Below the pieces are notes generated by a model that did no database searches, had not been told where the DNA came from, and saw only the letters and a list, made by a program, of their open reading frames with translations. From NCBI RefSeq assembly GCF_000934845.1, contig NZ_JXIQ01000141.1, positions 1 through 33,052 on the forward strand: a stretch of DNA of 33,052 nt, read 5' to 3'. Source of the stretch: Mesobacillus subterraneus. Lineage in GTDB: Bacteria > Bacillota > Bacilli > Bacillales > Cytobacillaceae. Shown piece by piece: positions 7,350-29,150 of this stretch. The translations under genes were made by a program, and so were the position numbers. How positions within the stretch are numbered: the stretch's first letter is position 1; the number at the start of each line of letters is the position of its first letter.

Positions 7350-7543
7350 AGCGAATCCTTCCTCATAAGGGCACCTTTCTGGATGAAAGATACCCTTACG
7401 CAGGCAAGTCCATCCGCATAAGGGCACCATTCCAGCTGAAAGATACCCTTATCCAAGCGAATCCTTCCGCATAAGGGCACCATTCCGGACGAAAGATGCC
7501 CTTATGCAGGCGAACCTATCCGCATAAGGGCACGAAAGATACC
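7350..7543 (+). repeat. Tandem 53-nt palindromic repeat array
   Basis: Units begin with GATACCC at 7389 and 7442 and GATGCCC at 7495, exactly 53 nt apart. A partial unit lies before 7389 and a last one begins at 7538 after a 10-nt deletion. Each unit has the arms CCCTTATGC and GCATAAGGG around a short variable loop, then a constant CACCATTCCGG-type linker. Any open frames through this stretch are repeat artefacts. Confidence 0.9.
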
Positions 7544-27751: not shown

Positions 27752-27787
27752 AGCGGTCCTCTATGTTGAGGGACGCTTTTTTTCCTT
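27752..27787 (+). terminator. Terminator of the CoA-disulfide reductase gene
   Basis: AGCGGTCCTC pairs with GAGGGACGCT around TATGTT (one mismatch, one G-U), followed by a run of seven T residues. Confidence 0.9.
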
Positions 27788-27809: not shown

Positions 27810-27922
27810 GAGAGATAGAGTCCCTTTTGGGAGAGATTTTATTAATAATCCGAGAGAATATTTTGTCACGCTGAGAGAATCTCACTGTGTGCCGAGAGAT
27901 TCCGCTTTTTAAATGAGAGATT
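27810..27922 (+). repeat. 21-nt phased GAGAGA array, upstream of NERD gene
   Basis: GAGAGA starts at 27810, 27831, 27852, 27873, 27894 and 27915: six copies with an exact 21-nt period. The extended consensus is GAGAGA(T/A)T followed by 13 variable bases. In one frame five of the six units read as a short open frame (x-R-D/E heptads), but the equivalent array downstream is full of stops, so coding is unlikely. There is no conserved dyad within the unit. Confidence 0.93.
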
Positions 27923-28002
27923 CCATTTTTCTGAACTTCAAGCAGGACTTTTCAATCGTCATGTTGAATATAATCATCAAAATAATAAGGAGTGATTCCA
28001 TT

Positions 28003-28959
28003 TTGATTGTAAAAAAGAGAGAAATACCATTACGAATCTTGATTGATGAGGCTTTATTGAGGCGCCTTCCTCTCAATCATCCAAAAAGAACCGAAATTAC
28101 CCAAGATCTTTTGATTCGAAGAGCCGGATTCAAAGGGGAACAGGACATGGACTATTATCTCAGCCTGCTAGACGATTCCGAATTCTATATTCTCCAGAAT
28201 ATCCGCCTTCCTTTGGGAAACAATCACTTCCAAATCGATTTCCTCTTGCTCTCCATTACTTTCATCCTTTTAATCGAAAATAAAAATATGCCTGGCTATA
28301 TTGAATTCGACGCAGATTTTAACCAGGTCATTCGCAGGAATAATGGTAAAACGGAGATTTACGATGATCCAGTCTTGCAAGTAAAAAGGCAATTGATTCA
28401 GCTGGCCCATTGGCTCAAACTGAACCACTTCACAATTCCTCCACTGGAATTCCTCGTCACCTACAGCAATCAAGGCTCCATCCTTCAAAACCCAACCAAA
28501 AATGAAGAAATATATAAAAGAGTTTGTAAGGGCGGAGCTGCAGTCATGAAAATAGAGGAATTCAAAAATCGAAACACCAAAGAAATCTTTTCGCAAAAGG
28601 ATATAAAAAGATTAGTTAAATTTTTGATTAAAAGCCATGAACCCGAGGGATCCCATCTGAATAAATTCAGTCTTTCTTCAGCGGATTTCGTTCTAGGGGT
28701 TGCTTGTCCATCCTGCAGCCGGCTGTATATGGAGCGAATATCAGGGAGCTGGCACTGTGCCAATTGCGGAACCAGCTCATCTGATGCACATGTACAAACG
28801 ATAATGGATTACTTTTTAATCGGTAACCCCTCCATCACAAACAAGCAGCTCCGGCTGCTGTTAAAGCTTCCATCAGATAAAACAGCTTCTAGGCTCCTCC
28901 TCAACACGAAACTCCCCTTTTCAGGGACCACAAAAAACAGAGTTTATTTTCCAAAGTAA
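28003..28959 (+). CDS. NERD-domain protein with C-terminal zinc ribbon
   Basis: This is a 318-aa protein with an N-terminal nuclease-related (NERD) domain. It carries the fold's acidic/basic core, GEQDMDYYL, then IDFLLLS and IENKN, as in the PD-(D/E)XK-like NERD family. After the domain comes a zinc ribbon (CPSC ... CANC, about residues 240-262) and a short helical C-terminal part. NERD proteins are thought to act on nucleic acid, but their targets are mostly unknown. TTG 28003 is taken as start because AAGGAG lies about 10 nt upstream; the longest frame opens inside the phased array at 27913. It is flanked on both sides by six-copy, 21-nt arrays. Confidence 0.8.
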   Translation: MIVKKREIPLRILIDEALLRRLPLNHPKRTEITQDLLIRRAGFKGEQDMDYYLSLLDDSEFYILQNIRLPLGNNHFQIDFLLLSITFILLIENKNMPGYIEFDADFNQVIRRNNGKTEIYDDPVLQVKRQLIQLAHWLKLNHFTIPPLEFLVTYSNQGSILQNPTKNEEIYKRVCKGGAAVMKIEEFKNRNTKEIFSQKDIKRLVKFLIKSHEPEGSHLNKFSLSSADFVLGVACPSCSRLYMERISGSWHCANCGTSSSDAHVQTIMDYFLIGNPSITNKQLRLLLKLPSDKTASRLLLNTKLPFSGTTKNRVYFPK

Positions 28960-28987
28960 TTCCTTAGAATCCATTATTTGGATAAAT

Positions 28988-29100
28988 GAGAGAATAGAAT
29001 GTGTTGGCGAGAGATTCTTGATTTATTATGAGAGATTATCCACATTAAACAAGAGATAATGAGCTTTTACAGAGAGAATCATCATCTATACCGAGAGATT
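28988..29100 (+). repeat. 21-nt phased GAGAGA array, downstream of NERD gene
   Basis: GAGAGA starts at 28988, 29009, 29030, 29051 (as AAGAGA), 29072 and 29093: again six copies at exactly 21 nt, on the same strand as the upstream array. The variable 13-nt parts are unrelated to those of the first array. Stops occur in the frames, so it is non-coding. It reaches to within a few bases of the prfB terminator. Confidence 0.93.
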
Positions 29101-29105
29101 CCCTA

Positions 29106-29132
29106 AAAATCCCCCGCCAAACCCGGCGGGGG
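29106..29132 (-). terminator. Terminator of prfB
   Basis: CCCCCGCC (29111-29118) pairs with GGCGGGGG (29125-29132). On the minus strand it is followed by ATTTTTAG. It lies about 20 nt past the prfB stop. Confidence 0.92.
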
Positions 29133-29150
29133 ACTCCCAAAACACCTATT

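Follow-up and report, generated by a model that had tools for sequence, protein, structure and literature searches.

RAYTs are resident chromosomal genes for HUH/Y1 transposases that are flanked by their cognate palindromic REP sequences, and copies of these sequences are scattered between other genes. The iterons of plasmid origins are direct sites about two helix turns apart, which are read by an adjacently encoded Rep protein. REPIN populations are reported to persist for millions of years (PMC8049555). Another study describes TAACTGA direct repeats in the Beggiatoaceae, which occur in sets of two to six, with 169 sets in one genome (MacGregor, 2015, PMC4679880). For Bacillus methanolicus, PMC12802215 mentions a NERD gene that lies 456 bp downstream of upp.

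The locus described here lies in a 33,052-nt stretch of DNA from Mesobacillus subterraneus, the whole of which is called the window below. It consists of a NERD gene between two arrays of a short, regularly spaced word. Searches of the open-access literature, to which most subscription journals do not belong, turned up neither a description of such arrays nor one of array-linked NERD genes. Like iterons, the arrays are direct sites about two helix turns apart that adjoin the gene of a candidate reader; unlike iterons, they are found at a host chromosomal locus and in many other places. The neighbours are host genes (the reductase in 18 and prfB in 20 loci), and the NERD protein of the window has no Rep domain above the Pfam cut-off and no match in the plasmid collection. 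The conserved word is 6-8 nt and the linker 13 nt, dimensions that do not fit a CRISPR, and no cas-like gene was seen by eye among the open reading frames of the window. With the TAACTGA repeats, as far as the available text of that study goes, the arrays share a short word in intergenic sets whose reader is unnamed. They differ in that TAACTGA is one word in many taxa, located mostly just before start codons, and in that no linked gene is named there (PMC4679880).

The NERD locus and its two arrays

The order of the genes and elements is a CoA-disulfide-reductase-like gene, a terminator, the left array, the NERD gene, the right array and a convergent prfB, where the names of the genes other than NERD were assigned by eye. 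The features are as follows:

27753-27783, plus strand: intrinsic terminator of the upstream CoA-disulfide-reductase-like gene, followed by the left array (hairpin and T run, by eye)
27810-27922, plus strand: left array, six GAGAGA words with a period of 21 (pattern count and cross-species word conservation)
27987-27994, plus strand: probable ribosome binding site AAGGAGTG (by eye)
28003-28959, plus strand: NERD protein of 318 aa with a probable TTG start (Pfam, conservation, weak model)
28988-29100, plus strand: right array, six words with a period of 21, the fourth being AAGAGA (pattern count and cross-species comparison)
29110-29133, strand not assigned: terminator-like hairpin that separates the right array from the convergent prfB (by eye)

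The longest open reading frame of the NERD gene covers 27913-28959. Translation probably starts at the TTG at 28003 behind AAGGAGTG, and the left array thus ends about 80 nt upstream of the start. The protein matches the NERD family (PF08378) with an E-value of 2.6e-17 and 63.8 bits against a gathering cut-off of 22.1, and this is its sole Pfam domain above the cut-off. It can be divided into a NERD core (G45, E46, D79, E92, K94, and Q126), a C4 zinc ribbon (C235, C238, C252, and C255) and a C-terminal helical part. We take G45, E46, D79, position 92, K94, and Q126 to be PD-(D/E)XK-like catalytic residues. In an alignment of 128 proteins out of 132 loci, G45, E46, D79, K94, and Q126 are invariant (128/128), position 92 is E in 87, D in 40 and S in one, and each of the four cysteines is present in 126-127 proteins. 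The conservation of the core residues and the cysteines thus suggests an active nuclease. A model predicted from three sequences was weak (pLDDT 67.7), and a structure search with it gave no match at an E-value of 0.001; PD-(D/E)XK enzymes (Bax1, Can2/Card1, McrC, and RecU) were found among unrelated proteins in the non-significant matches. Across the NERD part there are also weak matches to the defence kinases MADS6 and PglW.

The words of the left array start at 27810, 27831, 27852, 27873, 27894, and 27915, and those of the right array at 28988, 29009, 29030, 29051, 29072, and 29093. All 12 are on the plus strand in exact 21-nt steps, and the pattern GAGAGAWT-N13-GAGAGAWT has seven matches in the window and none in 100 dinucleotide shuffles. 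The original prediction of twin six-word arrays on the same strand with an unbroken period was thereby borne out. It had further stated that all words are GAGAGA, which is true for 11 of the 12, the exception being AAGAGA at 29051, and that the linkers vary freely; they are indeed much less constrained than the words, but T-rich and therefore not wholly free. When a period scan was slid across the window, z exceeded 4 in 11 of 218 segments; of these, five coincide with the arrays, two have period 27 and fall at the end of the reductase gene, and four (of 201) are elsewhere. In the whole host genome, GAGAGA-N15-GAGAGA is restricted to the locus and two further places, one (C16) with six in-register units (at most one mismatch each) and one (C7) with two exact units, while the reversed control gave zero.

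Comparison with related genomes separates words from linkers. Between the window and genome G004, the orthologous left arrays differ at 0/36 word positions and 36/78 linker positions (p = 4e-8), and the right arrays at 1/36 and 27/78 (p = 1e-4). Between the window and G001 the differences are 1/36 in words and 36/78 in linkers, and 2/36 and 45/78. For an orphan array behind a beta-phosphoglucomutase-like gene, all pairwise comparisons among eight genomes give a mean identity of 0.936 for the words and 0.576 for the linkers. Five close pairs were also tested one by one; three gave p of about 0.03 and two were not significant. Judged by these alignments, the array words are under selection, the linkers much less so. 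Selection for spacing rather than sequence, as first proposed, therefore describes only half of the pattern, since the spacing is selected but so is the word.

It had also been argued that tandem duplication alone would leave similar linkers. The linker identity between the left and right arrays is 0.32 and similar units throughout are not seen, so duplication is not the explanation. The idea that the arrays are ordinary minisatellites that arose by chance near NERD genes draws on the situation elsewhere in bacteria and archaea, where linker identity is above 0.6 in all but five (L076, L079, L105, L110, and L111) of 88 loci with GAGAGA at 21 nt. Recent duplications are found inside some arrays (L076, L132, and L338). 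With dissimilar linkers in the window, values of 0.30-0.46 in L079, L105, L110, and L111, and words kept across species where linkers are not, this origin is barely conceivable.

An element acting in RNA, with the words as protein-binding motifs in the leader and tail of the mRNA, would agree with the observation that where loci share a word, it is on the sense strand of the NERD gene. Orphan arrays are, however, on either strand relative to their neighbours, several come after terminators, and the window arrays fold no better than shuffled sequences (z of -1.38, -0.32, -0.81, and -0.62). RNA structure was rejected on these values, and the regularly spaced RNA-binding motif that had been offered as an alternative is very unlikely. 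Rfam gave no match above threshold on the window arrays, with one sub-threshold match only, and on the loci of 14 relatives it gave two T-boxes, neither of them on arrays. A coding function was also rejected; most of the six frames contain stops in both arrays (two frames are open over the full length of the left array and none over the right), and the period-20 arrays described below would break any frame.

Arrays, private words and apparent exchange at one locus

The flanks of 90 NERD loci from 21 genomes of the genus (30 plus a further 60 chosen by score among the matches listed) were scanned for any period from 15 to 30 with a threshold of z > 4. A 20/21-nt array is present in some flank of 74 of the 90 loci, while the interiors of the NERD genes, used as control, gave 0/90. 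Upstream, 65 of 89 flanks exceed the threshold, all with period 21 (44) or 20 (21). Downstream the number is 32 of 90, with 14 at period 21, and a period-30 signal is seen in 15 of the 90 loci; still further upstream it is 14 of 89, nine of them at 20/21. Sixteen loci are without a 20/21-nt array at this threshold. In other genera, 29 of 40 NERD loci picked among the matches listed have such a flanking array, and the interior control exceeded the threshold in one of 42, at period 27. Arrays are also found beside NERD genes in Psychrobacillus vulpis (L076) and Lysinibacillus boronitolerans (L132), whose proteins are 30 and 32% identical, but as both loci were retrieved with the GAGAGA pattern, they do not count as independent support for the link. 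NERD genes as such occur in at least 62 of the 71 genomes that were sampled in the window's family.

NERD genes are thus enriched next to such arrays, as the proposed gene link requires, and this strong tie makes the NERD gene the best candidate for the reader. The suggestion that it reads the arrays gains from the tie but is weakened by the dispersed GAGAGA arrays, which genomes with a GAGAGA-linked NERD do not contain in greater number than others (see below). We infer that the NERD protein may read the array directly. The predominance of arrays just upstream of the gene would also be expected if the array were only a multi-site operator repressing the NERD promoter and the dispersed arrays a small regulon. 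This autoregulatory role is improbable; L331, L333, L334, and L342 have the array downstream only, and of 76 arrays with both neighbours called (79 were tallied, some NERD-adjacent), only seven are between divergent genes, against 20 between convergent genes.

The words differ by NERD lineage. Within the genus they include GAGAGA, GGGAGA, GTGCAATTA, TCGTAGTGAT, CGTAGAGAAT, TTTCGCGGAAT, TCGCCAATAA, TCGCTATAAA, and CAACCGT, and outside it TATATCGGCG, CTATCCGCG, TATCGGTC, AAAAATCGC, GATATATT, and TGCAAATAG, with others in both cases; the word TAGAGA was assigned to L148, L151, and L153 from three-unit matches, and these loci are below the z threshold. The number of units, counted with at most one mismatch per word and with NERD-adjacent arrays included, is six in 17 of 20 GAGAGA and 17 of 30 TCGCTAT arrays and five in 19 of 25 TCGCGG arrays, while the 25 TGCAATT arrays have five units in nine cases and six in seven. 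Five of eight arrays inspected by eye in other genera have six. An inverted repeat, CTGGAAA...TTTCCAG, was seen by eye directly before many TCGCTAT and TCGCGG arrays (L175, L193, L198, L160, and L163), and at locus B it extends into the first word.

Most of the fetched NERD genes are found at about six conserved loci, with exceptions that include L147, L154, L156, and L203. At the window's place, between the reductase gene and prfB, five words occur across 19 species. Pairs with the same word have a median NERD identity of 83.4% (72.4-99.7, n = 40), and pairs with different words 50.0% (43.8-74.9, n = 131), while the neighbours hardly change (reductase 95.1 vs. 93.8 and PrfB 97.9 vs. 97.3 for same vs. 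different word). The ranges overlap slightly: the 12 pairs of the similar words TAGAGA and TAGTGA have 67.7-72.6% NERD identity, and the highest value among the remaining 119 different-word pairs is 72.2%, against a same-word minimum of 71.2% in the same alignment. Identity between the word groups is lowest at residues 211-225 (0.35) and also low at 136-150, 181-195, and 286-300 (0.42-0.44).

Since NERD identity drops with a change of word while the neighbours stay constant, the gene and its arrays behave as one replaced unit, apparently a cassette that is exchanged as an allele at a fixed chromosomal locus. The proposal that the gene is cargo carried between the arrays is in part consistent with this, as gene and arrays seem to be exchanged together, but the gene stays at a fixed locus. 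A mobile NERD gene that jumps with its arrays is not supported within the genus, because most of the genes are at the conserved loci. Searches with the NERD protein found nothing among 72,556 plasmid and 50,697 phage records, and viral contigs gave one match of 32 residues.

A distant NERD subfamily of about 308 residues has arrays that are built differently. Eighteen loci were fetched; L414 (no match), L400 and L411 (wrong ORF), and L413 (downstream too short) could not be read. A 20/21-nt array is found upstream in 0/15, while 11 of 14 readable loci have a downstream array of period 26 (L398, L399, L401-L403, L405, L407-L410, and L412). Among the exceptions, L404 has period 17, and L406 and L415 have no array. 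In most of nine arrays inspected by eye, the unit is about 52 nt long and contains two half-words in inverted orientation, which differ between genes (for example GACAG...CTGTC, CCGTG...CACGG, and CCAAT...ATTGG).

The window contains an array that by eye resembles those of this second subfamily, with no NERD gene beside it:

7351-7533, strand not assigned: tandem array of 3.5 copies of a 53-nt unit that contains the inverted half-words CATAAGGGCAC / TACCCTTATG (TRF)

Dispersed arrays

Dispersed arrays were counted in each genome as exact three-unit matches, with the reversed pattern as control; the controls were zero in all word counts except one, which had one match. Association with the cognate NERD was tested one-sided in 20 genomes, with G010 (66% complete) excluded and NERD-adjacent arrays removed, and the p values are per word over five words and treat the genomes as independent of ancestry. 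TCGCGG arrays number 8-33 in the seven genomes with the cognate NERD and 0-7 in the 13 without (p = 1.1e-4). The median for TCGCCAAT is 33.5 with and 12 without (p = 0.0015), and TCGCTAT gives 61 and 24 (p = 0.012). In the same 20 genomes, no link to the cognate NERD was found for TGCAATT (6.5 vs. 2.5, p = 0.18) or GAGAGA (1 vs. 1, p = 0.39); with NERD-adjacent arrays included the values were p = 0.091 and p = 0.034, respectively. The link is thus seen for words that belong to two NERD loci other than the window's, but for neither of the two words tested from the window's locus, and a rule of one word to one NERD is too strict, GAGAGA and TGCAATT being the failures. Several genomes keep GAGAGA arrays with intact words, and no NERD gene with GAGAGA was found there. 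G012 has neither array type of the TCGC-CAAT/CTAT locus, and no NERD for that locus was found among the matches listed. Outside the genus, 58 of 65 genomes of the family were searched. TATCGGCG is present in seven of the 58, including all five searched of one genus, with NERD-adjacent copies in three, and TATCCGCG is present in nine.

A site behind a phosphoglucomutase-like gene was followed by eye in 21 genomes. Ten have a GAGAGA array, two a decayed and one a displaced array. Three genomes lack the array, and in two of these one terminator directly adjoins the other; in G010 the surroundings differ and the array has the word GTAGTG. In G015 there are six consecutive GGGAGA units and behind them about five more that are degraded or of another kind, ending with GAGAGA. 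Six units with one new word would suggest a reader acting on the whole array; alternatively, the GGGAGA units may stem from replacement by another array. The convergent gene at this site was by eye seen to be missing in L379, L382, and L396, where a thioredoxin-reductase-like gene follows.

In five closed genomes (G003, G005, G007, G009, and G011), 75 of 85 tallied arrays are in the chromosome half that is centred on coordinate 1 (36/38, 5/6, 12/14, 19/21, and 3/6 by word). These are raw counts that assume coordinate 1 to be the origin and include NERD-adjacent arrays; TCGCCAAT and TCGCTAT were taken from G003 only, and G020 was excluded for its different numbering. This bias is regarded as a lead only.

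The arrays might be sites of a different factor, for instance a nucleoid or replication-associated protein, with NERD either regulated by it or embedded in array-rich regions. Such a factor would fit the conservation of GAGAGA arrays in genomes where no GAGAGA-linked NERD was found, the failure of dispersed GAGAGA and TGCAATT arrays to track the cognate NERD, and the chromosomal bias of the 85 arrays. It leaves unexplained that at one locus a change of word goes with a change of NERD allele, that the second subfamily has differently built arrays, and that other words lie beside the NERD genes of other genera. We consider this reading rather unlikely.

Proposed function and relation to known systems

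The explanation that we find somewhat probable is that the NERD protein of the array-linked subfamily reads a private phased word, that the gene and its arrays form an exchangeable cassette, and that the dispersed arrays are targets of this protein or of those encoded by former alleles. Each NERD protein would then bind DNA sequence-specifically, possess an intact PD-(D/E)XK-type nuclease core and read a word of 6-10 nt presented five or six times at 20-21 bp. With this spacing the words would all be on the same helix face, and several copies of the protein could load next to each other. At its fixed place in the chromosome, the gene would be exchanged together with its flanking arrays, and arrays with the same word elsewhere between genes would be other targets of the protein or of its former alleles. 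By acting at or near the arrays, the nuclease would cause them to be kept or spread. In short, we infer that NERD may bind the words, several copies together, and cut, spread or maintain the arrays. The NERD genes with private words suggest an undescribed family of proteins that read spaced chromosomal words. If this is true, a gene family without known function gains a testable one. There would also be many protein-word pairs with which the reading of DNA by a compact nuclease-fold protein could be studied.

A wider reading, which is doubtful at present, is that NERD and its word arrays represent an undescribed class of nuclease-linked intragenomic site populations. Each protein would read its private word in sets of about six that are in phase with the helix. 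Protein and word would diversify as a pair by cassette exchange at fixed loci, the arrays would be moved or kept by the protein, and the whole would be a second, unrelated solution of the RAYT/REPIN kind in two architectures, with direct words at 20-21 bp and with inverted half-words about 26 bp apart. It would also amount to a natural library of nuclease-fold proteins that differ in DNA specificity. If so, it would bear on the question why populations of short non-coding repeats are retained in bacteria.

From known NERD (PF08378) proteins, the protein of the window differs by the zinc ribbon and helical tail after the NERD part and by its linkage to arrays. The best reading of the comparison is that NERD and its arrays are nearest in function to RAYT and REPIN without being a member of that system. 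In both, a gene is flanked by cognate repeats of which copies are dispersed between genes, although the numerical link fails for two of the five words tested here. Unlike a RAYT, the protein combines NERD with a zinc ribbon and has no HUH/Y1 transposase domain above the Pfam cut-off. Unlike REPs, the window arrays consist of direct words at 20-21 bp and not of palindromes, while inverted half-words are found in the arrays of the second NERD subfamily.
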